Both the position numbers and the translations under genes were made by a program. A DNA stretch of 64,000 nucleotides from an uncultured delta proteobacterium (GTDB lineage Bacteria > Desulfobacterota > Desulfobulbia > Desulfobulbales > Desulfocapsaceae), in the NCBI GenBank assembly GCA_903875445.1, contig CAIQWD010000113.1, positions 62,001 through 126,000 of the forward strand, read 5' to 3'. Below are positions 11,807 to 46,945 of this stretch, piece after piece (within the stretch, counting starts at the first letter, position 1; every line of letters starts with the position of its first letter). The notes under the pieces are model-generated. The model was not told the origin of the DNA, did not search any database, and saw nothing but the letters and a program-made list of their open reading frames with translations.

Positions 11807-12561
11807 GATTCCTCCTGTCTGCCGCGCATCATCTGCAGATACGGCAGGAACTGGCGACGCTTGATCATTTCCGCCACCGACTTGCCTTTTTCTGACAGCG
11901 CCCCGGTCGGGCAAACTTGCACACATTTGCCGCAACCGGTGCAGGTTTCCGCAGTGCCCCAGGGCTGGTTGAGATCGGTGATGACCTTCGAGGTGATACC
12001 GCGGCCCATGATATCCCAGGTATGCGCACCTTCGATCTCGTCGCAGACGCGAACGCAGCGCAGGCAGAGGACGCAGCGGTTATGATCGACGGAGAAGCGG
12101 CTGTGCGAGGCATCGACTGCATGTTCCGGGTACAGATAATTGTAGCGGACATGGGTCACCCCCAGCTCCACCGACAGATTCTGCAGCTCGCAGTGGCCAT
12201 TGGAAACGCATACCGAACAGACGTGATTACGCTCGGTAAACAGCAGTTCGAGGATTTTCTTGCGATAGTTGACGACCCGCTCCGAATTGGTAATGACCTC
12301 CATATCCTGGCGGGGGAAGGTCACGCAGGAGGGCAGCAGCTTGGCGACGCCCCGTACCTCGACGATACACAGCCGGCAGGCGCCACGCTCCGACAGGCCG
12401 TCGAGGTGGCAGAGGGTGGGGATGGCGATACCGTTTTGCCGGGCTACTTCGAGAATGGATTCATCCTCGCGGGCGCTGACGTCGCGATCATCGATTTTAA
12501 AGGTCAAGAGGCGCGAGGGATTGAGGTCGGTTCGGAGTTTCCCCTTAGGATGATGGCTCAT
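11794..12561 (-). CDS. hoxU: Hydrogenase diaphorase subunit HoxU
   Basis: This 255-aa NuoG-like iron-sulfur subunit has an N-terminal [2Fe-2S] ferredoxin domain (Cys in [17 protein letters not shown]), a His/Cys segment ([15 protein letters not shown]), and two C-terminal [4Fe-4S] motifs ([11 protein letters not shown] and [12 protein letters not shown]). The start at 12561 overlaps the stop of hoxF in ATGA, so the two are translationally coupled. It links HoxF to HoxY. Confidence 0.94.
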
Positions 12562-14204
12562 GACACCTCCTTGGCGGTTTTGCAGGCCCCGGCCAAACAT
12601 TTTTTATCGTGAATATGCGCCAGATATTCATCGCGGAAATAGTTGAGGGTGGTCAGCACCGGATTGGGGGCGCTCTGTCCCAGGCCGCACAAACTGGTGT
12701 GTTTCACCAGGTCGCAGAGATCTTCAAGGGTTGCCAAGTCCTCGGTGGTGGCCCCCCCCGCGGTTATCTTGCAGAGAATGTCGTAGATCTGCCGCGTCCC
12801 CACCCGGCAGGGCGCGCATTTGCCGCAGGATTCGGACATGCAGAATTCCATGAAAAACTTGGCCACATCGACCATACAAGAGGATTCATCCATGACGATC
12901 ATACCGCCGGAGCCCATGATCGAACCGACCTGCATCAGCGAGTCGTAATCAACCGGCATATCGAGGAACTGCTGAGGGATACAGCCGCCCGACGGCCCGC
13001 CGGTCTGCACCGCCTTGAAACGCTTGCCTTCGGGGATACCTCCGCCGATTTCATAGACGATTTCGCGGAGAGGCATGCCCATGGGGACCTCGATCAGGCC
13101 GGTATTGACGATTTTTCCGGCAAGGGCAAAGACCTTGGTGCCCTTGCTTTTTTCCGTGCCGATGCCTGCAAACCACTTGCCGCCGTGTCGGATAATCGGC
13201 GGGATATTGGCAAAGGTCTCGACGTTGTTGATGAGCGTCGGGTGTTCCCACAGGCCGTATTCCGCTGGAAACGGCGGCCGTGGTCGCGGCCTGCCCATAC
13301 GCCCTTCGATGGAGGCGATAAGGGCGGTTTCTTCACCGCAGACGAAGGCCCCGGCGCCCAGTCGCACCTTGATATTGAAGCTGAAGTTGGTGTTGAAGAT
13401 GTTATTGCCGAGGATGCCCATGCGCTCCGCCTGGGACAGTGCCATCCGCACTCTTTTTACGGCCAACGGGTATTCGGCCCGGACATAGATGAAGCCCTGG
13501 CTCGCCCCGGTGGCGTAGCCTGCAACCGCCATGCCTTCGATAACCCGGTGCGGATCGCTTTCCAGGACGCTGCGGTCCATGAAGGCCCCCGGGTCGCCCT
13601 CGTCGGCATTGCAGATGACAAATTTGGTCGAATCGACCGTTTTGGCCACCGTCGTCCATTTGAGACCGGTGGGAAACCCCGCTCCGCCCCGGCCGCGCAG
13701 ACCGCTTTCGGTCACCTGGCCCAGCACCTCCTGGCGGGTCATCTGGGTGAGGGCGAGGTACAGTCCCTCATAACCGCTCTCGGCGATGTATTCTTCAATG
13801 CGCTCGGGGTCTATCCGGCCGCAATTCTCGGTGACGATCCGCAGTTGCCGCTGAAAAAACGCCGAATCGTCGGGGTAGAGCAGGCGATCGACGGGGCTAG
13901 CGCCGAGGGCCTCGACAATGTCGGCAACATCGGCAACCTTTACGCCTTGATAGAACCGTCCGCCAACCTCCAGGGCGATGAGCGGTCCCGCCGTGCACAG
14001 GCCGAGACAGCCGACGCCCTTGACCTGACACCAGTTGTCAAGGCCCCGTTTCCCGACCTCACGCGCCAGGGCGTCTTTCACCACGCCGCTGCCGCAGGAC
14101 AGGCAACCGGCGGCGACACAGACATTGATGCGATGCTGGAAGCCCTGTTGCGTATCCTGTTCAATTTTGGCGATCTGATGCAGATCTTCAATATTCAGGG
14201 TCAT
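12558..14204 (-). CDS. hoxF: Hydrogenase NADH-oxidising subunit HoxF
   Basis: This 548-aa flavoprotein subunit has an N-terminal thioredoxin-like [2Fe-2S] domain (Cys pairs in [10 protein letters not shown] and GCLGLC), the FMN/NADH-binding [13 protein letters not shown] and [11 protein letters not shown] motifs, and a C-terminal [4Fe-4S] motif [14 protein letters not shown]. The start at 14204 has GGAGG five bases upstream. It overlaps hoxE and hoxU by four bases each. It exchanges electrons with NAD(H). Confidence 0.95.
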
Positions 14205-14716
14205 CGCCACCTCCCTATCTTGTCAATGACATTGTCCGGGCTCAGCTTGCCGGCCACCTCGCCGTCAAAGACGCCGGCCGGAGCAAGCCCGCAGGAGCCA
14301 AGACAACGGGCAACGAGCAGGGAAACCTTGCCGTCCGGGGTGGTCTCGCCGGAACCGATGCCCACCTTCTCTTTGATATCGCCGAGGATGGCCCCGGAGC
14401 CGCCGATATAGCAGGCGGTGCCCATGCAGATGACACAGGTATGCTCGCCCGGCGGTTTCAAGGTGAAGGAGTGGTAGAAGGTGGCCACCGCATACACCCG
14501 ACTGAGCGGCACACGCAGGGTGCCGGCAACATGCTTCAAGACTCCTTCTTCAAGGTAGCCGAAGGATTCCTGGACGGCGTGCAGGGTTTCGATGAGGGCG
14601 TGCGACTGGTTCCTGTAGAGTTGCATGGTCCGGTTTACCATTCGTAACCGGTGATCTTCAGGAGGTTGTTTTGCGGAGGCGGACTTTCGTTCGGGGGTTG
14701 CACTTTCTTCCTTCAT
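14201..14716 (-). CDS. hoxE: Hydrogenase subunit HoxE (NuoE-like)
   Basis: This 171-aa NuoE-like [2Fe-2S] subunit has ligands in CMGTACYIGG and RCLGSCGLAP. The start at 14716 is preceded by AAGGAG at good spacing; the longer upstream frame has no support. It is first in the compact hoxEFUYH operon, whose genes all overlap or nearly touch. Having a separate HoxE matches the five-subunit bidirectional hydrogenases. Confidence 0.94.
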   Translation of the reverse strand: MKEESATPERKSASAKQPPEDHRLRMVNRTMQLYRNQSHALIETLHAVQESFGYLEEGVLKHVAGTLRVPLSRVYAVATFYHSFTLKPPGEHTCVICMGTACYIGGSGAILGDIKEKVGIGSGETTPDGKVSLLVARCLGSCGLAPAGVFDGEVAGKLSPDNVIDKIGRWR

Positions 14717-15173
14717 GCTCGATTCTCCTTGTGTTGACCGGCAACTGTGCGAGAAGACATAACCTGAGAGAAAAAGGCCGATAAAGGCAGCCAGGGTGTA
14801 AGGTTTTGACGCTTCATGCAGCCGTACCAAACGGAGGTGCGAGCAGCTACCCTAACTGATTTTCGATCATTTGAAGATGTTCACTATTCTACCTCGAATT
14901 GACAATTTTTTCCATCATTTCCTGGTTCGCTGACTTTCTGCACGGATCTTTCACCACACAACCGGTGAACACGATACGTATCTTGTCTCAAAGGTTGGTT
15001 GAAGACACTTCTTTGAAATACAAAATACCTATCGATTGAATAATATTAATCGATAATTATCGCTTCTCACTCTCCCGGAAGTGTGTTAAATGGAAAATTT
15101 GCGACAAACTACGACCATGTAGCAGGGCGTCGATCTCTTAAACTGTTTTATCTATTTGGAGGAACGGAGAAAA
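14717..15173. promoter_or_regulatory. Divergent intergenic region between hoxE and the sqr-like gene
   Basis: About 457 bases without a gene separate two outward-facing transcription units and must hold both promoters. The central part is AT-rich (about 14870-15070). A perfect dyad lies at 15030-15055. I cannot place -35/-10 elements with confidence. Confidence 0.6.
15030..15055. promoter_or_regulatory. Dyad upstream of the sqr-like gene, candidate operator
   Basis: TATCGATT (15030-15037) and AATCGATA (15048-15055) are perfect reverse complements separated by ten AT-only or nearly AT-only bases, about 120 bases before the sqr-like start. Size and spacing suit a dimeric regulator. Which regulator binds is unknown. 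Confidence 0.45.
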
Positions 15174-17273: not shown

Positions 17274-18611
17274 ATGGGCAAGGCATTGCACATCAAATCG
17301 GCAAGAAAAAAAGCGTTTCTCGACAAGGTCCGCGAGGCCTTGCCGCAAGGTGGCAATCTCAACCTTTGTTTGACCTGCGGTGCCTGCACCGCCGGCTGTC
17401 CCGCTGCCGGACTTTTGGATATGGATCCTCGGAAATTCCTGCGCATGGCGGTCATGGGCATGGACGACGAGCTGAGTGCCCATAAGTGGGTATGGATGTG
17501 TTCCATGTGCACGCGTTGCAGCCATGTTTGCCCGATGAACATCAACATTGCCGGGCTGATCATGGAAGGTCGCAGGTTGCTGTGGCCCAGGGAAGAGCGG
17601 CCGCGCGGTATCCTTCTCTCCTGCGACATGGCCTTGAAGAATCCGAGCACCAGTGCCACCGGCACGCCTCCCGACGATTTCCGCTTCGTCGTCGAGGACG
17701 TCCTGGCGGAGGTTCGGCAGAGCCAACCCGGCTGGGAGAACCTCCAGGCCCCCATCGACAAACAGGGCGCCGTCTTCTACCTCAGTCAGAATTCCCGGGA
17801 GCCGGTATCTCTGCCCGATGAGATGGTCCCTTTATGGAAGATCCTTCATCTGGCCGGTGCCGATTGGACCTATGGCAGCACCGCCTGGGCCGGCGAGAAT
17901 TATTGCATGTTTCTCGCCGACGACGAGGGCTGGCGCCGGATTACCGAGGCGACGGTGGGTAAAGCCGACGAACTTGGCTGCCAGGTGTATCTGAATACCG
18001 AATGCGGCCATTCGACCTTTTCCGTCAATCAGGGAATCCGCCGGTTTCACATCGATACCGCTCTGAACGTCAAGATCGTCGTCCACTTTTACGCCAAATG
18101 GATACGGGAAGGCCGGCTGCAGCCGAGCAGCGACTGGAACCGCGACCTGAAAATCCGCTTTACCGTCCAGGATCCCTGCAACCAGGTGCGGAAGGAATAC
18201 GGCGACGCCTATGCCGACGATCTGCGTTTCGTCGTGAAAGCGTGTGTCGGCGAGGAGAACTTCATCGACATGACCCCGAATAAGTCGAACAACTACTGTT
18301 GCGGCGGCGGTGGCGGCTACCTCCAGTCCGGCTTCAACGAAGAACGCCACCTCTACGGCAAGGTGAAATTCGAGCAGATCATGGCCACCGGTGCCAGGTA
18401 CTGCATCACCCCCTGCCACAACTGCCATGCTCAGATTCATGATCTGTCGCACCATTTCGACGGCGGTTTTTTTGTGAGCAATCTTTGGACCTTTCTTGCC
18501 CTTTCTCTCGGTGTGCTTGGAGAAAATGAAAGGGCCGATCTCTGCGATCTTCTGAAAGATGTCTGGCTGCCGGGTCAACCGGGAACACCGGATCCTTTTG
18601 CCTACAGGTGA
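17274..18611 (+). CDS. HdrD-like Fe-S oxidoreductase
   Basis: This 445-aa protein has an N-terminal pair of [4Fe-4S] motifs (CLTCGACTAGCP and CSMCTRCSHVCP) and C-terminal CCG-type cysteine domains, including DPCNQVRK, YCCGGGGGY and a CHNCHAQ segment. This is the layout of heterodisulfide reductase HdrD and related disulfide-handling oxidoreductases. No membrane helix is present. It is followed in the same reading frame, after one TGA and two codons, by the TTG start of the molybdopterin gene, so the two are tightly coupled. The likely role is electron transfer between a thiol/disulfide couple and the molybdenum protein. Confidence 0.85.
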   Translation: MGKALHIKSARKKAFLDKVREALPQGGNLNLCLTCGACTAGCPAAGLLDMDPRKFLRMAVMGMDDELSAHKWVWMCSMCTRCSHVCPMNINIAGLIMEGRRLLWPREERPRGILLSCDMALKNPSTSATGTPPDDFRFVVEDVLAEVRQSQPGWENLQAPIDKQGAVFYLSQNSREPVSLPDEMVPLWKILHLAGADWTYGSTAWAGENYCMFLADDEGWRRITEATVGKADELGCQVYLNTECGHSTFSVNQGIRRFHIDTALNVKIVVHFYAKWIREGRLQPSSDWNRDLKIRFTVQDPCNQVRKEYGDAYADDLRFVVKACVGEENFIDMTPNKSNNYCCGGGGGYLQSGFNEERHLYGKVKFEQIMATGARYCITPCHNCHAQIHDLSHHFDGGFFVSNLWTFLALSLGVLGENERADLCDLLKDVWLPGQPGTPDPFAYR

Positions 18612-18617
18612 AGTCTC

Positions 18618-20621
18618 TTGAAAGCGATAAAAACTCCATCAATATGTCATATATGTAAAGAGAATTGCGGCATTTTGGTGCAAGGGAATGGTGCCGGCAT
18701 TCGCATAAGCGGAAATCCCCAACACCCCATCAGCCGGGGATTTATATGCCTGCGCGGCAAGAACTTCGGCGAAATATTCTCTTCGCCACACCGCCTGCGT
18801 TGGCCACTTTTGCGAAAAGGGTCGCGTTGGCAGGAAATTTCCTATGCAGACGCCTTGACCACGCTCGCCGACCGTTTGCAGCGCTGCCGGCAACAACACG
18901 GCCCGGAGAGTGTGGTCTTCTATAAGGGGGAATCCCTGAAACATCAGGAGATTTCCCACTATATGAGACATCTCGCCCATGGCTTCGGCACCCCCAACTA
19001 CATTACCGTCGGCAGTCTCTGTCACTTCGCCATGACCCTCGGCTTTAAATTGACCTGCGGCGGGATGCCGGCAGCCGATTATGCGAGAATCAAGACGGCG
19101 ATTATCTGGGGCGCAAACCCCGCCGTGGCCCTTGCCAGATCCGCCGTCGCCCTGAAGAAGGCGGTACAGGAGGGGATGAAGCTTGTCGTTATCGACCCCT
19201 CGACCACCAAGACTGCCGAATTGGCCGATTGTCACCTGGCAATTACCCCCGGCTCGGACGGCTATCTTGCCCTGGCATTGATAAAATTTGCCATCGAAAA
19301 TCGCCATATCACCCCTGGCCCGGTTCCTGGCCAGGGCTGGGATGCGATGAAGGGCATGGTTTTGGCGGTCTCCATTCCGGATCTTCTGCACCCCACCGGG
19401 ATAGAGGTAAGCAGGTTTCACCAGGCAGCATCGCTCATTTTTGCCAATCTACCCGGCTGGGTCCAGACCGGTTCGGGCCTCGAACTGCAGCCAAACGGGG
19501 TGCAGACGGTACGCGCCATTGCCTCTCTTCTCACTCTTCTCGATCCCGAAGCAGTTACCGCGCCCCTTGCCTTGCCGCTTACCGCACTGCCGGGCATAGA
19601 CCGCTATCCTGCCATGGCCGAACCGATCGGCAAGGCGGAGCGACCGCTCTTTGCCGCGAACCTCGGTCAGGGCCAGGGCATGTACCTGCCACAGGCCATT
19701 CTGAGCGATCAACCCTATCCGATCCGCGCCCTGCTGGTAGTCGGCGGTAACCCGCTGCTGACCTTCCCCAATACGGCGATGTACCAAAAAGCCTTTAAAA
19801 AGCTGGATTTCATGGCGGTCTTTGATCTGTTTATGACCCCGACCGCGCAGCAGGCTGATCTGGTTTTTCCGGCCGCGACCTTCCTCGAAAATCTGGAGCT
19901 GATCGACTATGGCCGGATGGGGCAGCCGCACCTGGGGTTGATCAGGCCGGTGCTGGACTCAGGCTTCGGCTGGCCTACCTGGAAATTTCTTTTTCGCCTC
20001 GCCGACGCCCTCGGGCTCGGCGCGCTGCTGCCATGGCAGGACAATAGCGACGCCCTGACCCACCGGCTGGCTGGCAGCGGCATAACTCTTGCCGATCTTT
20101 TCGCCACTCCGTCCTCGACCGTTGGCTATCAGAGGGAAAAACCGGGTGACGGCTGGAATACCCCGGACAAAAGAGTCCACTATTTTTCGCAGGCGGTGGA
20201 GAAGACGGGCAATCCGCCTCTCCCCACCCCGGATTCTTTCCGGCTGCCGTACGGCACCGACCAAGAGTTTCCTTTTTGGCTGAGCACCGGTGACCGGGTG
20301 CCGTGTTACCAACACAGCCAGCTGCGCGAGAGCCCCACCTGTAAGGCGACCCTGCCGGAGCCGTTTGTCGAAATGCACCTTGATGCTGCGTCGCGATTGG
20401 GTATCGGCGAAGGCGACCGGGTGAGGGTGGCTACCAGGGACGGTAGTATCGATCTTGGTGTGAGCTTCAGCGCCGAGGTCCGTCCGGACTGCCTGCGTCT
20501 CACCCATGGCTGGGTTGCCGCCAACGCCAACGAACTGACAGGCCTGGACATTCTCGACTCCCTCTCGGGCTTTCCCTGGATGCGCGCCCTGCCGGCGAGA
20601 ATCGAGCGGACTAGCGGCTGA
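18618..20621 (+). CDS. Molybdopterin-dependent oxidoreductase (cytoplasmic)
   Basis: This 667-aa protein of the bis-MGD family starts at a TTG, because no in-frame ATG precedes the conserved N-terminus. It has a [4Fe-4S] site (Cys10, Cys13, Cys17, Cys44), a candidate Mo-ligand Cys in GSLCHFA, GANPAV and GGNPLL nucleotide-binding segments and a C-terminal molybdopterin-dinucleotide domain (ending near LTHGW). It lacks a Tat signal, so it should be cytoplasmic. The substrate is unknown; the neighbours suggest a sulfur- or one-carbon-linked compound. It overlaps the next gene by one base. Confidence 0.85.
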   Translation: MKAIKTPSICHICKENCGILVQGNGAGIRISGNPQHPISRGFICLRGKNFGEIFSSPHRLRWPLLRKGSRWQEISYADALTTLADRLQRCRQQHGPESVVFYKGESLKHQEISHYMRHLAHGFGTPNYITVGSLCHFAMTLGFKLTCGGMPAADYARIKTAIIWGANPAVALARSAVALKKAVQEGMKLVVIDPSTTKTAELADCHLAITPGSDGYLALALIKFAIENRHITPGPVPGQGWDAMKGMVLAVSIPDLLHPTGIEVSRFHQAASLIFANLPGWVQTGSGLELQPNGVQTVRAIASLLTLLDPEAVTAPLALPLTALPGIDRYPAMAEPIGKAERPLFAANLGQGQGMYLPQAILSDQPYPIRALLVVGGNPLLTFPNTAMYQKAFKKLDFMAVFDLFMTPTAQQADLVFPAATFLENLELIDYGRMGQPHLGLIRPVLDSGFGWPTWKFLFRLADALGLGALLPWQDNSDALTHRLAGSGITLADLFATPSSTVGYQREKPGDGWNTPDKRVHYFSQAVEKTGNPPLPTPDSFRLPYGTDQEFPFWLSTGDRVPCYQHSQLRESPTCKATLPEPFVEMHLDAASRLGIGEGDRVRVATRDGSIDLGVSFSAEVRPDCLRLTHGWVAANANELTGLDILDSLSGFPWMRALPARIERTSG

Positions 20622-21694
20622 TGATTGATTTCACCAGAAAAGACACCTTGACCCCAAGGGAGCGGCTCACGGCGCTCATCGCCTGCAAACCCATCGACCG
20701 GGTGCCTTTCAATCCATTTTCCATGGGTTTTTCCGCGCGGCTCTTCGGGATCGACCGCGGGGAGTTCTATCGTAATCCGGAGAAGGCCTTTGCCGCAGGC
20801 CTGCATCTCATGGAGACCTATCCGTGGATGAATTGCCGGCCCTCGTACGGTTGGGCGGACCGGGGGTCCTGGGAATTTGGCGGCAAGGTGATCTGGCCGG
20901 ACAATAACCGGTTTATCGCCCCCGGTTCCGAGCCGCTGTTGCATACGCCGCAGGAGGTGGACGGCCTAGCCGATCCCGACCCCGAGCTGGCGGGCATGAA
21001 CCCCCTGATCGATCGTTTCAACGCCCTGAATCGTCGGCACGGTTTTCCCGCTTCGCTGCCGGGCGGTACCCCCACCACCCTTGCCGCCGGGATTGTCGGA
21101 CGGTCGACCTTTCTGAAATGGCTTTTACGCTATCCGGAAGCGGTGCACGGGCTGCAAAAAAAAGTGACCCGCTTTCTTCTGCGGACCGCGGAAAGGACCA
21201 TCGGCAAGTATGGCGCCGGCAATTGCAGCGTTTTTTGCGGCGTTCCCATGGAGTCCAATCAACTGATTCCGGTCGAGATGTTCGCCACCTTTGCCAAGCC
21301 GTATATTCGCGAGATCTTCGAATTCTATCGGTCTGCGGGGGTTGTCTCGGTGGTGGTGCACCTCTGTGGCGACCACACCGCCAACCTCGCCCATTGGCAG
21401 GATATCCCGCTGCCGCCGCGGACGGTGTTCTCCATCGGTCATGAAATGGATCTTGAGAAGACCAGTGCCGCCATCGGTAAGACCCACATTCTCGGCGGCA
21501 ATGTGAACAACCAAATCCTACACCGGGGAACGGAAGAAGATGTAGCTACTGAGGTCACGCGCTGTCTTACAGCCGGGATGAAACACCCCGGAGGGTTTAT
21601 CCTTATGCCCGCCTGTGAACTGCCGCCCGATACGCCGACGGAGAACCTCGAAGCTCTCGCCGGTACTCTCTCCGAACGGGGGTATTATCAATGA
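20621..21694 (+). CDS. UroD/MtaA-type methyltransferase (first copy)
   Basis: This 357-aa protein is of the uroporphyrinogen decarboxylase superfamily. It keeps the zinc-site pattern of methylcobamide:thiol methyltransferases: His-x-Cys in VVVHLCGDH and a C-terminal Cys in MPACELPPDTP. MtaA/MtbA relatives move a methyl group between a corrinoid protein and a thiol. True HemE would lack this Cys pattern. The gene overlaps its neighbours on both sides (TGATG and ATGA) in the array. Confidence 0.82.
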   Translation: MIDFTRKDTLTPRERLTALIACKPIDRVPFNPFSMGFSARLFGIDRGEFYRNPEKAFAAGLHLMETYPWMNCRPSYGWADRGSWEFGGKVIWPDNNRFIAPGSEPLLHTPQEVDGLADPDPELAGMNPLIDRFNALNRRHGFPASLPGGTPTTLAAGIVGRSTFLKWLLRYPEAVHGLQKKVTRFLLRTAERTIGKYGAGNCSVFCGVPMESNQLIPVEMFATFAKPYIREIFEFYRSAGVVSVVVHLCGDHTANLAHWQDIPLPPRTVFSIGHEMDLEKTSAAIGKTHILGGNVNNQILHRGTEEDVATEVTRCLTAGMKHPGGFILMPACELPPDTPTENLEALAGTLSERGYYQ

Positions 21695-22536
21695 CCAAAG
21701 GCATGTTCCACAAGGCAGTGACGGAGGACCAACTCAAGGTGAAGCTCTGTATCAATAACCTCCGTAAGGAATATGTAGGGGGAACACGGGATACTTTTGT
21801 CGCCCTGGATAAACTGAGCCTTCAGGTTGCCGAGGGAGAATTCGTTTCTGTGCTCGGGCCGAGCGGCTGCGGCAAATCAACTCTTCTAGAGATCATTGCC
21901 GGCTTGCAGAAGCGGAGCAGCGGCGAGATTAGCATCGACGGCCTGCCCATTGAGAAGAGCGGCACAAAACCAGCCATTGTGTTCCAGCACTATGGCCTTT
22001 TTCCCTGGCTGACGGTGCAAAAAAACATCGAATACGGACTTAAGATCCGTGGCATAGACCGCAAAACGCGAAACAAAATTTCGCATGCGCATATCGAGAT
22101 GGTGAATCTGGGCGGTTTCGCCAAGTTTTATCCCCACGAGTTGTCGGGCGGCATGCAGCAACGGGTCGCCCTGGCAAGGGCGCTGGCGAACAATCCGGAT
22201 ATTCTTCTGCTGGATGAGCCTTTTGCCGCCCTGGACGCACAGACCAGGGAAATGTGTCAGCGAGAACTCCTTAATTTGTGGAAACAGACGGGGGTGACCA
22301 TCATCTTTGTTACCCATGACGTTGGTGAAGCTATCTTCCTGTCCGACCGGGTTATTGTCATGTCAAAAAACCCAGGGACCATCAAGGAATCGATCCCCAT
22401 TGATATTGCCAGACCAAGGGATTTCCATGTCCGTCTGGCGGAAGGATTTCGCAAGACCGAACTGCATGTGCGGTTGTTGATCTCGGAGAACGGCGCGATG
22501 GTCGCAATTCCTGGAAAGGAGGGACAGCATGGCTGA
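21691..22536 (+). CDS. ABC transporter ATPase, SsuB/TauB type
   Basis: This 281-aa nucleotide-binding subunit has Walker A GPSGCGKST, signature LSGGMQQRV, Walker B ILLLDEPF and the switch His in FVTHDV. It belongs to the nitrate/sulfonate/taurine importer class by length and by its permease and binding-protein partners. It overlaps the methyltransferase gene by four bases and the permease by eight. It powers import of the (unknown) substrate of this island. Confidence 0.93.
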   Translation: MTKGMFHKAVTEDQLKVKLCINNLRKEYVGGTRDTFVALDKLSLQVAEGEFVSVLGPSGCGKSTLLEIIAGLQKRSSGEISIDGLPIEKSGTKPAIVFQHYGLFPWLTVQKNIEYGLKIRGIDRKTRNKISHAHIEMVNLGGFAKFYPHELSGGMQQRVALARALANNPDILLLDEPFAALDAQTREMCQRELLNLWKQTGVTIIFVTHDVGEAIFLSDRVIVMSKNPGTIKESIPIDIARPRDFHVRLAEGFRKTELHVRLLISENGAMVAIPGKEGQHG

Positions 22537-23317
22537 TCATAAGCTTAAAAAAACGGCGGCTCGGTTTTTGCTGAAATGTCTCCTTCCCCTGGCCATTTTC
22601 CTGGGTTGGGAAATTGCGGTAACTTACGGTGACATCCCTCCTCTTCTCCTTCCGAAGCTTGCAAAAGTAGGCGCAGATTTTGTAAAATATTCCACGAACG
22701 GCGAGCTTTTTCACCATATTTTCATAAGCTTACGTAGATGCGCCATCGGCTTCTTCATTGGCTCGACCCTAGGAATCGTCTTTGGCATCCTCTTGGGATG
22801 GTTCAAACGCTTGGAGGATTTTTTTGACTTCACTCTCAACTTCAGCCGTGCCATTCCGAAAACCGCCCTCGCTCCTCTGCTCATCGTCTGGTTCGGGTTC
22901 GGGGATTTCCCGAAGGTGATGCTTATTGGCCTTGCGGCGTTTTTCTACACCGTCATTCCGACGCTTGAAGGGGTGCAAAATGTCGACAGCCTCCTGGTCA
23001 AATCCGCTCGGTCGATGGGCGCAGGTGACCGCCAAATCGTCTTTGGAGTCATTCTGCCGGCGGCAATGCCCTCCATCTATGCCGGTATCCGCATCGCTGC
23101 CACCTCATCCTTTGTCATCCTGCTGTTTGTGGAAATCATCTCGGGCAATAGCGGCCTGGGATTTCTCCTTGAAGATGCGCGGGAAAGCTTGAACACCTCC
23201 ACCATGTTCATGACCCTCATTGTCGTCGGCATCCTCGGCTTCAGTCTTGATTGGCTCGTTCGCTACACCGAGAAAAAGGTAATGCCCTGGCAAAGGGGCA
23301 AGACCCTGTCCAGATAA
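22529..23317 (+). CDS. ABC transporter permease, SsuC/TauC type
   Basis: This 262-aa inner-membrane protein has about six hydrophobic segments and the EAA-like coupling loop in SARSMGAGDRQIVFGVILPAAMP. The size and motif fit SsuC/TauC permeases. The start overlaps the ATPase gene. Confidence 0.92.
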   Translation: MADHKLKKTAARFLLKCLLPLAIFLGWEIAVTYGDIPPLLLPKLAKVGADFVKYSTNGELFHHIFISLRRCAIGFFIGSTLGIVFGILLGWFKRLEDFFDFTLNFSRAIPKTALAPLLIVWFGFGDFPKVMLIGLAAFFYTVIPTLEGVQNVDSLLVKSARSMGAGDRQIVFGVILPAAMPSIYAGIRIAATSSFVILLFVEIISGNSGLGFLLEDARESLNTSTMFMTLIVVGILGFSLDWLVRYTEKKVMPWQRGKTLSR

Positions 23318-23351
23318 TCAGATATCTCAAACCAAAAGGAGCATTTCGCAG

Positions 23352-24305
23352 ATGAAAAACTGTATTCAGAAAATTATCGTTATCCTCGGGCTGATGAGCG
23401 TGGCAATGCCGGCCATGGCCCTTGAAAAAGACAAAATGCGTGTTGTTACCAGCACCTATGACATTACGATGGATGTGACGATCGCCAAGGAAAAAGGCTA
23501 TTTCGATCTCCTCGGTCTCGATTTTGAGCCGGTCACGGTCAAGGGGGGAACGGCAACCATTATTTCGTCCATCGGTTCTGGGGAGGTGGACGGCTGTTTC
23601 CTTGCCTCCTCCGGTGCCTTCACCGCCTATTCCAAAGGGGTGAAAATGGTGCAGGTGGCCGGGAACGGCAACCGGACCTTCGATCTCTACGCCCGCAAGG
23701 ATTCACCGATAAATTCCCTCAAGGATTTGGAAGGCAAGAAAATCGCCAATAAACCTCGCCCCTCAGGTCCATGGCTGGCGCTTCGGTATGATCTCGATGA
23801 ACAGAAAATAAACGCCGAGGTCATTGATGTAAAAACCGAAGATTTGGCCCTTTCCGCCCTGCTCAGCGGCCAGGTGGATGCTGCCATCGGCGAGGCGACC
23901 TTTCTCGCAATGTATGGCGACCAAATTAAAAAAATTAACAGTTCCAGCATCAGCAAATACCTCTTCAATTCCTGCGGGTGGTGGTTCAAGGAAGACTTTG
24001 CCAAAAAGCATCCGGAGGCGATCAAAAAATTTGTTGATGGTATTCTGCTTGCCCGTCTTTTTATCCATGAACATAAGGATGAAGCCATGCAGATCCTGGC
24101 CAGGGAGACTCATATGGATCTGGCCGCATTCAAATTCAAGGATGCCTATGACCTGCCGACCTTTGATATGCCCACCACCATCTACAAATACGGCCTCGAT
24201 AAAATGGTCGGAATTTTTCAAAAATACCAGTTGGTTGAAGGTGAGGTCAAGGTTGACGACCTGGTGGATGTCCGGTTCAGCATCATCATTGACAAAGACT
24301 ATTAA
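23352..24305 (+). CDS. ABC transporter substrate-binding protein, SsuA/NMT1 type
   Basis: This 317-aa periplasmic protein has a cleavable signal peptide (cleavage near AMA-LEKD) and no lipobox. The body has the NMT1/SsuA pattern, with an early YDITMDVTIAKEKGYFD segment, GGTATIISSIGSGEVDG and KDLEGKKIA. The family binds sulfonates, nitrate, thiamine precursors or aromatic sulfonates. The methyl-transfer and sulfur genes around it suggest a methylated or sulfonated organosulfur ligand, which is inference. Confidence 0.9.
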   Translation: MKNCIQKIIVILGLMSVAMPAMALEKDKMRVVTSTYDITMDVTIAKEKGYFDLLGLDFEPVTVKGGTATIISSIGSGEVDGCFLASSGAFTAYSKGVKMVQVAGNGNRTFDLYARKDSPINSLKDLEGKKIANKPRPSGPWLALRYDLDEQKINAEVIDVKTEDLALSALLSGQVDAAIGEATFLAMYGDQIKKINSSSISKYLFNSCGWWFKEDFAKKHPEAIKKFVDGILLARLFIHEHKDEAMQILARETHMDLAAFKFKDAYDLPTFDMPTTIYKYGLDKMVGIFQKYQLVEGEVKVDDLVDVRFSIIIDKDY

Positions 24306-24308
24306 ACG

Positions 24309-25352
24309 ATGATGGCAATGACACCCCGCCACAGACTGCTCAATGCCCTCCGGGGTGCGGCCGTTGACAGGCCACCGGTTATTATCCCAGGCGGGATGAT
24401 GGCCGGAAGTCTGTACGCCCTGCTGGAGGAGAATCATCTCGCCTATCCGACGCTGCACAACAATGCTGCGGCGATGGCCGAGTACGCCGTTCTCCTGCAG
24501 CAAACGTGTGAGATCGACAACTACGGGGTGCCTTTTTGCATGACCGTGGAGGCCGAGGATTTCGGAGCCGAGGTTGATCTCGGCAGCCCACTGAAAGATC
24601 CGCGGGTAACGCGATATCCGGCCGCAACCCTAGACCAGGTGCTTGCCATACATCCCGCGGCCTGCCCGCGGCACCGGGTAACGCTCGATGCGATTGCCAG
24701 GTTGACCGGCGGCGATGTGCCGGTGATCGGTAATTTGACCGGTCCGACCTCCCTGCTCACCTCGCTCATGGAACCCACTGAAGTTTATCGAGCTATGGCA
24801 AAAGATGAGAAGAAAGTTGCCTTAGCTCTTACCCACCTCACAGCCCACCTGATCCGCTTTGCCGAAGAGCAGGTGGCGGCGGGCGCGGATATGCTAGTCC
24901 TGGCCGATCCCGGTTCTTCCGGCGATATCATCGGCGGTGGGCACTTTAGGAGACTTGTGGCTCCGTCTTTGCTGGCGATTGTCGAGGCGGTCAAGGTCTG
25001 CGGCAAACCGGTAGTCTTGCACATCTGCGGGAATATCATGCCTCTCGCGCCGGAGTTGGCGGAAATTCCTTGGGACGCGCTTTCGGTCGATTCGGTGGTG
25101 AGTCTCTCTAAACTGCAGGTCCATTTTCCTGAGAGAACGCTCATGGGCAATGTTTCCACACATCTGCTGGCCGTATCCTCTGGGGATAAAATTTACCAGG
25201 CTGCCGGCAAGGCGGTCGAGGTGTCGGCAATTCTTGCCCCGGCATGCGGACTTTCCACGACCACGCTGCCGGAAAACATTCGCAGTATGGTCAGGGCCGC
25301 ACGAGATGCGGCCGGCAAGCTGCCTAAGTATTCAGTCCCTGGCGTTTCCTGA
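24309..25352 (+). CDS. UroD/MtaA-type methyltransferase (second copy)
   Basis: This 347-aa methyltransferase of the MtaA group has GNLTGPTSL, AGADMLVLADPGSSGDI, the His-x-Cys zinc site VVLHICGN and the third ligand Cys in LAPACGLST. It is clearly distinct in sequence from the first copy 3.7 kb upstream, so the two probably act on different methyl donors or acceptors. The corrinoid protein gene follows after 27 bases, which fits a methyl transfer to or from that protein. Confidence 0.88.
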   Translation: MMAMTPRHRLLNALRGAAVDRPPVIIPGGMMAGSLYALLEENHLAYPTLHNNAAAMAEYAVLLQQTCEIDNYGVPFCMTVEAEDFGAEVDLGSPLKDPRVTRYPAATLDQVLAIHPAACPRHRVTLDAIARLTGGDVPVIGNLTGPTSLLTSLMEPTEVYRAMAKDEKKVALALTHLTAHLIRFAEEQVAAGADMLVLADPGSSGDIIGGGHFRRLVAPSLLAIVEAVKVCGKPVVLHICGNIMPLAPELAEIPWDALSVDSVVSLSKLQVHFPERTLMGNVSTHLLAVSSGDKIYQAAGKAVEVSAILAPACGLSTTTLPENIRSMVRAARDAAGKLPKYSVPGVS

Positions 25353-25379
25353 AGGTATCAAGATCGAGGAGCAGAAAAT

Positions 25380-26054
25380 ATGTTGAAAAGAAGAGTGCAG
25401 ATTCTCAAGGAAATCGCGGCGGCTGTCGTAGCAATGGATGAAAACGGCGTTGTCCATTTGGCCCGGGAAGCGTTGCACCAGGGTGTCAAGGCCAATGAAA
25501 TTATCATGGAAGGCCTCTCCAAAGGCATGGAGGTGGTAGGCAAAAGATATGAAAGCGGGGAATACTTCATCCCGCAGATGCTGGTCGCATCCGATGCCAT
25601 GTATGCCGCAATCGAGGTACTGAAACCGCATCTCACAGGGACCGCCGGTAAATCCGCCGGCAGGATTGTCATCGGTGTGGTGGAAGGGGACACCCACGAT
25701 ATCGGCAAGAACCTCGTCAAGATCATGCTGGAATCGTCGGGTTTTACGGTTCATGATCTCGGCCGCGATGTGCCGTTGCAAAAATTCATAGAGGAAGCGG
25801 AAGCCGTTCAGGCACAGATGATCTGTCTGTCTTCTCTCATGACAACGGCAATGAGCGGTATGAAAGAAGTCGTCCGCATGCTCAAGACCAGGGGGCTGCG
25901 CCATAAATACAAGGTTATGGTGGGGGGCGGACCAATCTCGCAAGCCTTTGCCGATGCCATTGAGGCGGATGGTTATGCCGCCAATGCTGTCAGCGCTGTT
26001 AAAAAAGCTAAGGAATTACTCTCTGGTGACGAGACCCGCAGTATCATGTTTTAA
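25380..26054 (+). CDS. Corrinoid (cobalamin-binding) methyl-carrier protein, MtaC/MtbC type
   Basis: This 224-aa two-domain protein has an N-terminal helical cap (about 1-95) and a Rossmann-like B12 domain with the base-off/His-on motif D104-T-H106-D-I-G109, followed by a SLMTTAM segment and GGGPIS near the C-terminus. It carries a methyl group on cobalt between methyltransferases. It stands between the second UroD-like gene and the sulfur-relay genes. No MtaB or trimethylamine-type substrate methyltransferase is nearby. Confidence 0.93.
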   Translation: MLKRRVQILKEIAAAVVAMDENGVVHLAREALHQGVKANEIIMEGLSKGMEVVGKRYESGEYFIPQMLVASDAMYAAIEVLKPHLTGTAGKSAGRIVIGVVEGDTHDIGKNLVKIMLESSGFTVHDLGRDVPLQKFIEEAEAVQAQMICLSSLMTTAMSGMKEVVRMLKTRGLRHKYKVMVGGGPISQAFADAIEADGYAANAVSAVKKAKELLSGDETRSIMF

Positions 26055-26180
26055 TATTGATTGGCGTTTATCGATAGGATATTCCTGTTTGTAAAAACCT
26101 TATGTTACAAGTAAAGAGCAAGATGTTGAGATGGTACATTTTCGTTCATGCTCCGTTTTTTAGGCTTCCTTATCAACCCT

Positions 26181-26441
26181 ATGACAACGACCAGTGGTAT
26201 ACCCGCCTGGCAATTCGATGATGAATTCGATGGTGGTGAAGAGACCTGTGGACGGGTCATCGTCAACCTGTATCTGTATATCCGGGACCAGCCACCCGGC
26301 CGTCGCCTGCTGGTGATCTCCCGCGATCCGGGTGCACCGATCGAATTGCCGGCCTGGTGCAGAATGACCAAAAACCGGCTGATCGCAATGCAGCATCCCT
26401 ATTACCTCATCACTCTGAAACCCGAACTTATCAAGGAGTAA
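26181..26441 (+). CDS. TusA-like small protein lacking the CPxP motif
   Basis: The frame is open from an ATG at 26148, but the Met at 26181 fits the N-terminus of the related TusA-OsmC fusion; neither has a strong ribosome site. The ~86-aa product shares FDGG-x3-CG, an IRD segment and LPAWCRM with the fusion protein at 26831. TusA's sulfur-carrying CPxP is replaced by Cys-Gly. It lies four bases before the DsrE-like gene. A sulfur-relay role is inferred from fold and context. Confidence 0.6.
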   Translation: MTTTSGIPAWQFDDEFDGGEETCGRVIVNLYLYIRDQPPGRRLLVISRDPGAPIELPAWCRMTKNRLIAMQHPYYLITLKPELIKE

Positions 26442-26445: not shown

Positions 26446-26811
26446 ATGTCCAACACCTTTTGTGTAACCATTACCCACTGTAAAACCGATGGCGATAAAG
26501 CCACTCTCGGATTTGTCGTCGCCAATGCCGCCCAGGGCAGCGAGAAAGAGACCATGGTCTTTCTCAGCTCCGACGGGGTCTACTGCGCCGTTCCCGAAGA
26601 AATGGCGAAAATCAATGAAGGCAGCCCGTTTGCGCCTCTCAAAGATCTGGTGGAAAAATTCCTCAAGGCGGGTGGCAAAATCTATGTCTGCACCCCCTGC
26701 ATGAAAAAACGTGGTATCACCGAGGCAAGCCTCATTGAAGGGGCAACCCCGGCCGGTGGCGCAGCCCTGGTCGAATGGCTGACCAACGGCTCGCCCTGCG
26801 TTGCCTATTAA
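26446..26811 (+). CDS. DsrE-like protein
   Basis: This 121-aa cytoplasmic protein of the DsrE/DsrF superfamily has an N-terminal ITHCKTDGDKATLGF, a central MVFLSSDGVY and the redox or persulfide segment KIYVCTPCMKKRGI. Members move sulfane sulfur or act in thiol redox, and selenocysteine versions of DsrE-like proteins are known; this copy uses Cys in CTPC. It is between the TusA-like gene and the TusA-OsmC fusion gene. Confidence 0.85.
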   Translation: MSNTFCVTITHCKTDGDKATLGFVVANAAQGSEKETMVFLSSDGVYCAVPEEMAKINEGSPFAPLKDLVEKFLKAGGKIYVCTPCMKKRGITEASLIEGATPAGGAALVEWLTNGSPCVAY

Positions 26812-26830
26812 GATCGCCGGGAGAAGAGTA

Positions 26831-27574
26831 ATGGCCATGCCCCGGGATATGACGGCAATCGTTCCCGACAACATGTTTGACGGCGGCGATCTGGACTGTG
26901 GCTCCGGCCTGATCCTCCTCATCCGTGACGCCATGTGCCAGGTGCCGGCCCACGGCATCCTGGAGATGCGCAGCCGTGAACCGACGGTCAGCGATGATCT
27001 GCCGCCATGGTGCCGGATGTCCGGCCATGAATATCTGGGGAAAGAGGTTGCCGAAGGGTATACCAGGTATTTCGTACAAAAGGGCAAGGGGCTGCCGGAA
27101 GAGGAAGCGGCCCTGAAAAAAGACAAGGAAGAGGCGAGAAAATACCAGTGGCGCCTGCGGGCAAGGGCCACCGGTCATTTGCAATCAACGGTATACGCCC
27201 GAAATTTTGCCTTTGATGTTGGTCAGGCGGCGAGTTTTGAGGAAAAGGATACCCACCCTTCCGCCCTTGAATATTTGTTCGGTGCCCTGGCCGGCTCGCT
27301 TACCAGTGGCTTTGCCACGGAATGTGCCCGAGACAACCTCGAAGTAGATGATATTGAGCTGTCCCTGGGAGGCTCGCTCAATAATATTCTCGCCCACCTG
27401 GGCCTCGAAGAGGGCGATCCCTCGGTCGCGACCATCGAAATGAAATGCTTTGCCTCGACCTTCGACGACGAGGATAAAGTCAAATTGGCCTGGCAGCGGA
27501 CCCTTGCTCGCTCGCCCCTGGTGGCCACCCTGAAAAAGGCTGTAGACCTGCAAATGAAGCTGGTGATTGTGTAA
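26831..27574 (+). CDS. TusA-like / OsmC-like fusion protein
   Basis: The start at 26831 has GGGAG upstream. The 247-aa product joins a TusA-like domain (about 1-75, with FDGGDLDCG and LPPWCRM), a charged helical linker (about 80-105) and an OsmC-like domain (about 105-247). In the OsmC domain both catalytic cysteine positions appear to be serine: ALAGS in the central helix and RSPLVATL near the C-terminus, where active OsmC has ALAGC and CPV...TL. A peroxidase role is therefore unlikely; a binding or carrier role is more plausible. It is one of two degenerate TusA-like modules in the same operon. Confidence 0.75.
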   Translation: MAMPRDMTAIVPDNMFDGGDLDCGSGLILLIRDAMCQVPAHGILEMRSREPTVSDDLPPWCRMSGHEYLGKEVAEGYTRYFVQKGKGLPEEEAALKKDKEEARKYQWRLRARATGHLQSTVYARNFAFDVGQAASFEEKDTHPSALEYLFGALAGSLTSGFATECARDNLEVDDIELSLGGSLNNILAHLGLEEGDPSVATIEMKCFASTFDDEDKVKLAWQRTLARSPLVATLKKAVDLQMKLVIV

Positions 27575-27577: not shown

Positions 27578-28744
27578 ATGCGTGAAAACAAAACGTTTCA
27601 AACCACCCAGGTTGGTTCCTGGCCGCGCTCCAAGGAGCTGCTGAAAATGCTGCGCGGCTACCAGAAGGGAACGGTCTCCCGTGCCGACTTCACTGCGGTT
27701 GCCGAAAATGAGATCCGCCGGACCGTGGCCCTGCAGGAACAGGCCGGCCTTGATATCGTCGTCGATGGCGAACACCGCCGGGAGAGCTTCTATGCCTTTA
27801 TCACCGAGAAAGTGGCCGGCACAAAGTTGATGTCGCTTGCCGATATGCTCGATTTCGTCGAGAATAAGGCGGAATTCGAAGAGATGCTGCGGACCATGGA
27901 TATGCCGGCCTCAGCGGTCAAAAACCCGACCTGCATCGGCAAACTTTCCCGGCGCGAGCCGCTGGCACTGGGCGATTTGCACTTTCTCAGGACCATTACC
28001 GCAAAGCCTGTAAAAATCACCCTGCCCGGCCCCTATCTCCTGACCCGGTCGATGTGGGTAGGCGCCTTGACCCGCAAGGCTTACCGGAATCATCAGAAGA
28101 TGGCCGACGACATTGTCAGGATTCTCCGCGACGAGCTGCTCGATCTGCGGGATGCCGGCTGCGACTTTGTCCAATTCGACGAACCGGTGCTGACCGAGGT
28201 GGTCATGTCGGAGGACTGTGAGCGGCGCACCTTCATGTGAGCAACCCTTGCCACCCGCCGGGATGCGGGTAAAGAACTGCAATTCGCCGCCGACCTGATC
28301 AACCGAATCGTCAAAGGTGTGGACGGAATCCGCATCGGCGTCCATATCTGTCGCGGCAACTGGTCGAAACAGGAAGAGGTGCTGTTGAAAGGTGACTACG
28401 CCCGCCTTCTCCCCGCCCTGGAGCCTATGAAGATCGACCAATTTGTCCTGGAATATGCCACACCCCGGGCTGGAGATATCGATGTGGTCGGCAAAAGACT
28501 CTCCGATCGTGAGTTGGGGTTAGGCGTCGTCAACCCGCGTACCGATGAAGTCGAGTCGGTTGAGACGATCGTCGCCAAGGCGGAAAAAGCCCTTGAATAT
28601 TATCGTCCGGAACAGCTCTTTCTCAATACCGATTGCGGCTTCGGTTGTTTCTCCAGCCGCTCGGTCAATGTCGAGGAAGTGGCATATAAGAAACTCTGCG
28701 CGATTGTCGAAGCGGCGAAATGTTTAAGAAAAAGGTATTGCTGA
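27578..28744 (+). CDS. Core-MetE-type methyltransferase with candidate selenocysteine at residue 221
   Basis: The frame runs 388 codons if the UGA at 28238-28240 is read as selenocysteine; both parts are in the same frame and together make one complete core MetE domain. The first part has the N-terminal TQVGSWPRS, GEHRRESFY and FVQFDEPV motifs. The second carries the zinc site: His256 and Cys258 (VHICRGNW), Glu292 (VLEYA) and Cys353 (NTDCGFG). The folate/N-terminal half of full MetE is missing, as in corrinoid-dependent methionine synthases. A SECIS-like hairpin follows the UGA. The probable role is methyl transfer from the corrinoid protein to a thiol. The alternative is a recent nonsense mutation. 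Confidence 0.75.
28253..28270 (+). promoter_or_regulatory. Candidate bacterial SECIS hairpin in the MetE-like gene
   Basis: ACCCGC (28253-28258) pairs perfectly with GCGGGT (28265-28270) around a six-base loop CGGGAT. A G lies at the second loop position, 20 bases after the UGA at 28238-28240. The known bacterial SECIS rules (short stem, G in the first two loop bases, roughly 16-37 bases after the UGA) are met. The selD hairpin in this window has nearly the same spacing. Confidence 0.65.
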
Positions 28745-45183: not shown

Positions 45184-45257
45184 GGGCAGCAAAACACTCG
45201 ACCGTCAGAGTTAACAGCACATTGACAATCCGTTGAATGAAGATGGTTCGTATAAAA

Positions 45258-46328
45258 ATGGATGATCAGAATAAAAAGACAGTCCACCTGACCAGTTGCG
45301 TAAAAGGGTCGGGTTGAGCCGCAAAAATTTCTCCAGGGGACTTGGAGTACATCTTGAGCGGGTTGACCATTCCCAGCAACGAAAATGTCCTGATCGGGAT
45401 GGCAACCGCCGATGACGCCGGAGTTTATAAAATATCGGATGATCTGGCACTCATTCAGACTGTCGATTTTTTTACCCCGATAGTCGATGATCCCTATGAC
45501 TTCGGGCGCATCGCCGCCGCCAATGCTCTTTCCGATGTTTACGCGATGGGAGGAACACCAAAAACGGCCTTAAATATTGTCGCTTTTCCGATAAACACCT
45601 TTGATGGCGAAATCCTGCGGGCCATTCTCGCAGGAGGTCTCGATAAATTACGGGAGGCGCAGGCCGTTCTCCTCGGGGGCCACAGCATCGTCGATGATGA
45701 AATGAAGTTTGGCATGGCGGTTACCGGCTTTATCCATCCTCGGAAAATTCTTGCCAATCAAGGTCTTCAAAACGGGGACTGTCTCATACTCACCAAGGCC
45801 CTGGGTACAGGCATTATCTGTACCGCGGTCAAGGGTGGACTTGTTTCCGAGCAGACACTGCGCCGGGTTACCACCTTGATGGCGACTTTGAACAAGTACG
45901 CTGCGGCGATTATGGCCGACTTCCCGGTATCCGCCTGCACCGATATTACCGGTTTCGGACTCCTTGGACACCTAGCCGAAATGATTTCCGGCACCGGTAT
46001 GGGTGTCGTTATCGACAGCCGGGCTGTACCGGTTCTCCCGGAAGCGCTCGACTTCGCGGCCATGGGTATGGTTCCGGCCGCTACCCACAAAAATCGCCTT
46101 TTCCGCCAACAGAGAGTGGTGATGGATGACGCTTTTGATCCGGTCCTTCGCGATGTTCTCTTTGACCCGCAAACCTCCGGAGGACTTTTGATCGGATGTG
46201 CGGCAAAAGATGCTTACGTCTTGCAGCAGCGGTTGCTTGGGGAAGGTGTGGCTGATGCTCGCATTATCGGCTATGCAACGAGCAGTAGGGAAGAGAAAAT
46301 TTATCTTGAGAAAGACGGAGGCTTGTGA
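45258..46328 (+). CDS. selD: Selenophosphate synthetase with selenocysteine at position 20
   Basis: The protein makes selenophosphate from selenide and ATP. Read through the UGA at 45315-45317, the N-terminus is ...TSCVKGSG-Sec-AAKISPGDLE, exactly the SelD active-site pattern (GSG-C/U-AAKI). The 356-aa product continues with GMATADDAGVY, FFTPIVDDPYDFGRIAAANALSDVYAMGG and DITGFGLLGH. Start at 45258 or an in-frame ATG at 45243; neither has a strong ribosome site. It is followed almost directly by yedF. It shows that this organism inserts selenocysteine. Confidence 0.95.
45331..45347 (+). promoter_or_regulatory. Bacterial SECIS hairpin in selD
   Basis: CTCCA (45331-45335) pairs with TGGAG (45343-45347) around the loop GGGGACT. 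The first loop G is 19 bases after the UGA at 45315-45317. This is the expected place and form of a bacterial SECIS element for SelB-dependent selenocysteine insertion. Confidence 0.75.
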
Positions 46329-46330
46329 AG

Positions 46331-46945
46331 ATGACAAAGACTATCGATGCCCGGGGGCTTGCCTGCCCGGCGCCGGTCCTGATGGTCAAGGATCTTGTGG
46401 AAAAGGACAATCCCGGCGAATTGACCGTTATGGTCGACAACGATGCATCGCGGGAGAATGTGACTCGTTTTCTCACGACCAGAAATTACCTGGTTAAGGC
46501 GGACCGGCAAAACGGAGGATTCCTCCTCCTTGCCCGGCACAAGGACGGTGGTGAACAACCGACCGAGGCTCCCATGCCGGAACTTGTTTCCTGCATCGGT
46601 GTCCGGTCGAAAATTGTCGTTCTGGTGACGAGTGCGCAACTCGGACGTGGCGACGATCGCCTGGGCGACAAACTCATGGCCAATTATCTGAAAACTCTTA
46701 AAGAGATGGGTAATGATCTTTGGCAGCTCATCTTCGTCAACAGCGGGGTACAACTGACCATCGATTCGTCCCCGGTCTTGGCGGAGTTGCAAGAGTATGA
46801 AAAAAACGGGGTGATCATCCTCGCTTGTGGAACCTGTCTTGAGCATTTCCACCTGACTGATTGTAAAAAAGTCGGCGCCACCACCAATATGCTCGATATC
46901 GTCACTGCCATGCAATTGGCCGATAAAGTGCTCACCATCGGCTGA
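46331..46945 (+). CDS. yedF: YedF-like sulfurtransferase (TusA domain plus DsrE-like domain)
   Basis: This ~204-aa protein has an N-terminal TusA/SirA domain with IDARGLACPAPVL (intact CPxP) and a C-terminal DsrE-like domain ending VIILACGTCLEHFHL. This architecture is the selenium-metabolism-linked YedF family, usually found beside selD. GGAGG sits nine bases before the ATG at 46331; a GTG at 46325 is possible. It overlaps or touches selD. It may deliver sulfur or selenium in selenophosphate supply. Confidence 0.9.
   Translation: MTKTIDARGLACPAPVLMVKDLVEKDNPGELTVMVDNDASRENVTRFLTTRNYLVKADRQNGGFLLLARHKDGGEQPTEAPMPELVSCIGVRSKIVVLVTSAQLGRGDDRLGDKLMANYLKTLKEMGNDLWQLIFVNSGVQLTIDSSPVLAELQEYEKNGVIILACGTCLEHFHLTDCKKVGATTNMLDIVTAMQLADKVLTIG

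Follow-up and report, generated by a model that had tools for sequence, protein, structure and literature searches.

A core-MetE gene with an in-frame UGA

The DNA analysed here, called the window throughout, is a 64,000-nucleotide stretch of a contig from an uncultured delta proteobacterium of the Desulfocapsaceae. On its plus strand it carries a conserved module in which genes for sulfur-carrier-type proteins precede a methionine synthase-like gene with an in-frame UGA; a selD gene lies further downstream. The features are:

26148..26441, plus strand: TusA-like sulfur-carrier protein, with which the conserved module opens (Pfam TusA 26.9 bits, cut-off 28.6)
26446..26811, plus strand: DsrE-family protein with an invariant CxPC motif (from Pfam and neighbours)
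26801..27574, plus strand: TusA-OsmC fusion protein, start codon uncertain (from Pfam and neighbours)
27578..28744, plus strand: metE-core gene with predicted Sec221, 388 residues when the UGA is read through (from homologues and Pfam)
28238..28240, plus strand: in-frame UGA, codon 221, putatively read as selenocysteine (46 UGA and 40 Cys homologues)
28253..28270, plus strand: SECIS-like hairpin with a 6-bp stem (28253-28258/28265-28270) and the loop CGGGAT (28259-28264)
45237..46328, plus strand: selD with an in-frame UGA at 45315-45317; host Sec machinery, outside the module
46325..46945, plus strand: TusA-DsrE two-domain protein after selD, which we take to be YedF-like; its DsrE part scores just below cut-off

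The initial annotation had described the metE-core gene as a single frame, open on both sides of the UGA, and this was confirmed: the UGA is codon 221 and the frame ends at the stop codon at 28742-28744. The product is a predicted zinc-dependent core-MetE enzyme without a folate-binding domain, as indicated by the Meth_synt_2 domain of Pfam (residues 7-380 of the read-through protein, E 2.5e-37), the presence of the zinc ligands HCEC and the absence of the folate domain. All matches to the methionine-synthase models of NCBIfam were far under cut-off (the best, NF003317, reached 194.5 of 406 bits; TIGR01371 scored 115 against a cut-off of 930), and the Sec/Cys family is thus unrecognised at cut-off by every one of these models. 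A search of the source genome with the MetE-core query returned one match, the window gene itself, and no second one. Elsewhere in the window, on the minus strand, the genes at 9797-14830 presumably encode a multi-subunit NAD-linked hydrogenase, judging by eye.

Codon 221 among homologues

Relatives were collected as 57 loci from GTDB contigs, plus plasmids. In the class of the source genome, 24 of 257 genomes had a relative (E<=1e-40). At E<=1e-60, relatives were found in 10 of 299 genomes in the class of a Bacillaceae genome, in 17 of 294 in the class of a Dehalococcoidia genome, in 22 of 84 in the phylum of a Poribacteria genome and in 14 of 150 in the order of a Desulfovibrionaceae genome, where all 14 had one in-frame TGA. 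The identity of codon 221 was taken from the loci whose match spans it. The resulting census of 88 distinct near-full-length rows comprised 46 with UGA and 40 with Cys at 221; the other two, the distant relatives L053 and L054 (27-29% identity), do not have the Sec segment and were counted in neither group. No residue other than Sec (UGA) or Cys was found at 221 among the 86 distinct near-full-length homologues. Fragments and broken copies were kept out of these 86 rows, although some of them (L048, L050 and L079) also have UGA at 221. An alignment of homologues at this position had been proposed as a check on the candidate new core-MetE selenoprotein; with UGA and Cys exclusively, and no unrelated sense residue, its outcome supports the candidate.

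In the phylogenetic tree, 45 of the UGA rows grouped in a single clade (SH-aLRT 100), which is largely Desulfobacterota and also includes Bacteroidota and Eisenbacteria; the remaining one, L096 (35% identity), comes from the class of the Bacillaceae genome. Two changes, either origins or losses, are needed to account for UGA on the tree, and the starred branches force two. The long branch of L096 leaves its position in the tree unsure; its UGA is itself firm, lying in a frame with intact zinc ligands. The L096 genome has selA. The UGA of this member (L096/L140, genome G270) is a probable independent gain of Sec. The same distant member, with its UGA at the same position, adjoins a rhodanese gene and a glycine-betaine-type ABC transporter.

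Because the UGA is kept in 46 distinct near-full-length sequences and replaced by Cys in the other 40, it is not a chance occurrence. The UGA-bearing sequences stem from isolates as well as from metagenome-assembled genomes (MAGs). Separately, a few family members are interrupted in other ways: the MetE-Sec gene is broken or frameshifted in two MAGs (L047/L079 and L050/L080), L095 has a TAA, and a Cys-form gene from a Dehalococcoidia-class genome (L102:1504-2622) has an early in-frame TAG, for which decay, error or recoding are candidates.

Host Sec machinery and the SECIS-like hairpin

SelB scored above cut-off in all 12 host genomes or records examined, the source genome and four hosts of the Cys form included. 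The source genome also has a tRNA-Sec match (72 bits) and so has SelB, SelD and tRNA-Sec together. The in-frame UGA seen by the initial annotation in selD is real, and its Sec context reads TSCVKGSG-U-AAKI.

The hairpin reported after the metE-core UGA was found exactly as placed, with its six-base-pair stem starting 12 nt past the UGA and the first G of its loop 20 nt past it. Comparable hairpins are frequent in the window: a G-loop hairpin with a stem of at least 6 bp follows 271 of 1968 UGA trinucleotides (both strands; 14%), and 12% of 1969 window UGAs have a minimum free energy at least as low as that of the candidate. The hairpin alone is thus weak evidence that cannot carry the selenoprotein claim, and hairpin statistics were rejected as proof of Sec.

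A test of synonymous variation, for constraint at the RNA level, covered the 45 sequences of the UGA clade, L096 being left out, with 245 scorable codons and a mean diversity ratio of 0.89 (sd 0.18) over the gene. Codons 222-225, directly past the UGA, vary freely (ratio 0.96-1.10), whereas T226 and R227, which encode the 5' arm of the stem, are nearly frozen: T226 is ACC in 44 of 45 sequences (ratio 0.07) and R227 is CGC in 42 of 45 (ratio 0.17). Synonymous diversity is also lowered at R228 (0.64) and G231 (0.51), and the stretch at codons 226-236 is the lowest of 336 such windows. Synonymous variation is therefore suppressed at the hairpin codons and not at codons closer to the UGA.

The stem was also scored in an alignment of 50 distinct sequences (300 stem cells, again without L096). 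It is paired in 93.7% of the cells, compared with 24-49% when slid. Covariation is scarce, consisting of one change on both sides and fourteen changes from G-C to G-U, and its score was matched or exceeded in 29 of 500 shuffles; as proof of the SECIS stem, covariation was therefore set aside as weak. L035 retains the stem with a different closing pair, the hairpin fits poorly in L033 and L038, and in L096 a different hairpin is possible that competes with an alternative fold. All together, the homologue and genome comparisons make it almost certain that the host's Sec machinery, aided by the downstream hairpin, inserts selenocysteine 221 at the UGA at 28238.

Active-site residues and the Sec segment

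Residue conservation was read from 43 relatives chosen for spread, from which L102, with its TAG, had been dropped. The four zinc ligands that the initial annotation had placed after the UGA (His256, Cys258, Glu292 and Cys353) proved to be invariant in all 43 rows, and so are S14, E65 and D201, which are of the homocysteine-binding type, and position 221 (Sec/Cys). These residues match the zinc and homocysteine residues of core-MetE enzymes in the part of Price et al. that treats them (PMC7857596). Judging by the invariant residues, the substrate that zinc binds is likely to be homocysteine or another amino-acid thiol (or selenol) like it.

Positions 221, 258 and 353 are the sole invariant Cys/Sec positions in the 43 rows, and the enzyme accordingly has no built-in resolving Cys. 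No UxxC or CxxU motif is found at Sec221, whose context is FM-U-ATL with no Cys within three residues.

An AlphaFold2 (AF2) model of the protein had a pLDDT of 88.4 and a pTM of 0.90, with a less confident loop at residues 211-230 (pLDDT 60-69), which holds Sec221. The top PDB match to the model was 3rpd (Z 37.7, rmsd 2.6, 327 aligned residues), treated as MesD in the relevant text of PMC7857596; 1xdj, a MetE with homocysteine, followed with Z 35.7, rmsd 2.8 and 333 aligned residues. The family profile aligns with 3rpd and with Thermotoga maritima MetE to about residue 200 and resumes at residue 235 or later, with 202-234 unaligned, which makes the Sec segment a family-specific insertion past the strand that bears D201. 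In the model, a position of Sec221 next to the zinc site is plausible.

Sulfur-carrier genes and fusions around the MetE core

Neighbouring genes were counted in the 47 loci of L001-L058 that reach 1.5 kb or more ahead of the match, with L049 and L050 set aside. TusA, DsrE and TusA-OsmC lie upstream of the MetE core in 42 of the 47, among them all 38 loci with a UGA-type gene start. The five loci without carriers are L043 (Cys form), the distant L053 and L054, and L052 and L057, where the match starts inside the gene. Among 20 further loci, eight have TusA, DsrE and TusA-OsmC, and four (L145-L148) have TusA, DsrE and a TusA-like stretch ahead of MetE; L137 has DsrE and TusA-OsmC, L139 and L142-L144 have an OsmC-type match only, and no carriers were found near the MetE core in L140, L151 and L149, the last being cut by the end of its contig. 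In Paracoccus a TusA domain and the MetE core are joined in one protein, and the same kind of fusion occurs in the Dehalococcoidia loci L146 and L147.

The cysteines of the carriers are strongly conserved: the CxPC of DsrE in 71 of 71 sequences, C34 and C71 of TusA in 72/72 and 71/72, and C33 and C71 of TusA-OsmC both in 59/59, those of the OsmC domain being less so (41/59 and 45/59). Gene order and fusions thus make the MetE core a partner of TusA, DsrE and TusA-OsmC, and the proteins would be expected to interact physically. Two kinds of additional neighbour were seen. In L134 and L137 the module borders on a gene for a DsbD/CcdA-type membrane protein (the L137 match being under the Pfam cut-off), and a rhodanese gene lies downstream of MetE and OsmC in L144 and upstream of MetE in L140.

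The corrinoid operon upstream of the module

Upstream of tusA, the window contains an operon (17274-26054) for an HdrD-like iron-sulfur protein, a molybdopterin oxidoreductase, two MtaA/MtbA-type methyltransferases, a sulfonate-type ABC transporter and an MtbC-like corrinoid protein, which perhaps serves the demethylation of an imported methylated compound. The initial annotation had called the MetE-type protein corrinoid-linked, and this was not borne out: of the 31 other loci that extend 3 kb or more upstream of tusA, not one has the corrinoid or UroD genes, and these had no match elsewhere in L002-L058 at E<=1e-5. As the linkage is not conserved, the operon was rejected as a functional partner.

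Matches to other genes of the upstream stretch in L002-L058 are sporadic: the ABC ATPase matches only in L008, L022 and L050, the molybdopterin oxidoreductase in L020 and the HdrD-like protein in L040 (94%) and L019 (26%). In L040, a close relative (94% identity), the HdrD-like gene lies about 200 bases from tusA, with no corrinoid or UroD genes between them, and the corrinoid operon therefore looks as if it was inserted before tusA in the lineage of the window.

Link to selenium genes

Of the 52 UGA-type and the 23 Cys-type loci, three of each type have Sec genes in the flanks that were fetched. Taking roughly three such genes in every 4.0 Mb, 0.39 UGA-type and 0.26 Cys-type loci would be expected to have them (Poisson p 0.007 and 0.0025, both post hoc and with relatedness not removed). 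The UGA-type cases are L002, L018 and L035, which have selD near the MetE core; L035 also has YedF and a SelB-like protein (58 against 242 bits, cut by the end of the locus). Among the Cys-type loci, Paracoccus L085 has selA in its flank and selB about 11 kb away. In two Dehalococcoidia-class genomes, selB (L148:2184-4019 and L149:2648-4501) lies a few kb from Cys-form MetE genes.

The Paracoccus region has a further feature. In Paracoccus ferrooxidans pFER4, a UGSC-family selenoprotein (L155:13407-13973) appears as two CDS due to an in-frame UGA; it scores 87.6 bits against a cut-off of 125 and is not annotated as such. A 363-residue protein without an NCBIfam match sits after this UGSC gene. 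The presence of the UGSC selenoprotein in the same cluster may explain the Sec genes beside the Paracoccus module.

At the level of genomes, selA was found in 9 of 10 family carriers and 59 of 289 other genomes in the class of the Bacillaceae genome (p 8.6e-6), and the tenth carrier there (G259) has a SelB match above cut-off. The corresponding figures were 15 of 17 carriers and 182 of 277 others in the Dehalococcoidia (p 0.04), and 18 of 22 carriers and 53 of 62 others in the Poribacteria, where there is no enrichment (p 0.78). The link between selA and the family is therefore clear only where Sec use is rare.

A candidate relay between sulfur carriers and a MetE-type enzyme

These observations are best explained, and we hold this to be highly probable as a whole, by a selenocysteine-containing core-MetE enzyme that works with a TusA/DsrE/TusA-OsmC persulfide or thiol relay. 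The relay partners would be the TusA-like protein, the DsrE protein with its CxPC and the TusA-OsmC protein. Zinc would bind and activate an amino-acid thiol that accepts or donates a group; TusA would dock at the mouth of the barrel; and Sec221 or Cys221, carried on a mobile loop above the active site, would act as the nucleophile between the TusA cysteine and the thiol. We only tentatively suggest that residue 221, as the nucleophile, exchanges either methyl or sulfane sulfur with the cysteine of TusA, zinc meanwhile activating the thiol. Slightly more doubtful is a joint action of a zinc-bound amino-acid thiol or selenol and the selenolate in passing methyl or sulfane sulfur to a protein-bound TusA cysteine or taking it from there. 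What travels on the carriers could be sulfur, selenium, methyl groups or electrons. If the proposed relay is true, a methyl or persulfide relay would tie sulfur carriers directly to methionine-type chemistry, in a further folate-independent member of the MetE group.

The protein may instead be a folate-independent methionine synthase that methylates homocysteine, with Sec/Cys221 as an intermediate carrier of the methyl group, which a methylated sulfur-carrier protein would donate. The invariant zinc site and S14, E65 and D201 agree with such a role, as do a fold nearest to MesD (3rpd) and to homocysteine-bound MetE, and a source genome with neither a MetH match at E<=1e-100 nor a second MetE-core match. 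However, MetH is above cut-off in 14 of 24 host genomes, with a weaker match in three more, so methionine synthesis need not depend on the Sec-MetE core; moreover, the conserved Cys pairs of the carriers suggest persulfide or redox rather than methyl traffic. We consider this role somewhat unlikely.

A role in selenium trafficking or assimilation, in which the carriers move Se or S and the MetE-like enzyme acts on a seleno-amino acid or on methylated Se, is unlikely, even though selA, selB or selD are found in flanks of both UGA-type and Cys-type loci and selA is enriched among carriers in the class of the Bacillaceae genome. Selenium genes are to be expected beside a selenoprotein gene in any case, the enrichment is absent in the Poribacteria and weak in the Dehalococcoidia, the Sec genes of Paracoccus may belong with the UGSC selenoprotein of the same region, L148 and L149 represent one MetE subgroup, and the genomes are related. 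Both methionine synthesis and selenium handling overlap with the relay proposed above.

Residue 221 could also be a regulatory redox switch, non-catalytic, on an otherwise ordinary methyltransferase: MetE is subject to oxidative regulation through a cysteine, and the residue lies in the low-confidence loop of the AF2 model. This is quite improbable, given that all 86 rows, with identities as low as 35%, have U or C at position 221 and that no resolving Cys is conserved. Finally, that the UGA is a true stop in a split or decayed gene, or a product of wrong assembly, is extremely improbable, even if some family members carry breaks at other places (L047/L079, L050/L080, L102 with TAG and L095 with TAA): the same UGA recurs in 46 distinct sequences, with both isolates and MAGs among their sources, and the downstream half, with the entire zinc site, is under amino-acid constraint.

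Returning to the Sec core-MetE enzyme with its relay, the family would add to the known selenoproteins one that occurs mostly in the Desulfobacterota, has members in Bacteroidota and Eisenbacteria, and probably arose separately in the class of the Bacillaceae genome; it would also bring selenium into the fold of a zinc methyltransferase. Automated annotation will probably truncate such genes at the UGA, with loss of the zinc site. The pairs of Sec and Cys forms, together with the TusA fusions, offer a direct route to the role of sulfur-carrier relays with a methionine-synthase-like enzyme.

Comparison with known systems

With the known prokaryotic selenoprotein families, the MetE-type protein shares an in-frame UGA, a downstream hairpin, Cys homologues and the Sec machinery of its hosts. 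It is very probably a real selenoprotein, judged by these features of the genes, and belongs to a family that is apparently unlisted so far: no MetE/PF01717 family is among the 119 prokaryotic families in Table 1 of the May 2026 inventory (PMC13188914), which in that table takes in families credited to PMC12013261 and PMC9879109 (Haft and coworkers), and no MetE-type protein is among the nine new deep-Sep families in Table 3 of PMC12013277. Likewise, no published MetE-type selenoprotein was recognised among the matches listed in literature searches, whose scope excluded supplements; the 34 putative selenoproteins mentioned in the main text of PMC8318568 are given in supplementary tables. Most families in Table 1 of PMC13188914 have a thioredoxin-like fold, whereas the protein described here has a MetE-type barrel and, unlike thioredoxin-type selenoproteins, neither UxxC nor CxxU.

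The family is apparently a further core-MetE family. As described in the pertinent text of PMC7857596, MesA, MesB, MesC and MesD likewise consist of a MetE catalytic domain without the folate domain, and they have in common with it the zinc ligands HCEC and the Ser/Glu/Asp for homocysteine; to these core methionine synthases the present family adds the Sec/Cys221 insertion and the sulfur-carrier neighbours. Barrel, zinc and substrate residues are also shared with MetE itself (1xdj, 1t7l), from which the family differs in having no N-terminal folate domain and in its extra Sec loop.

As to the carriers, the module contains the same protein families as the TusA/DsrE sulfur relays, with conserved carrier cysteines. 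The usual TusA motif is CP. The TusA variant found here has CG in its place. In further contrast to those relays, TusA also occurs fused to OsmC or to the MetE core, and the carriers stand beside a methyltransferase-type gene.
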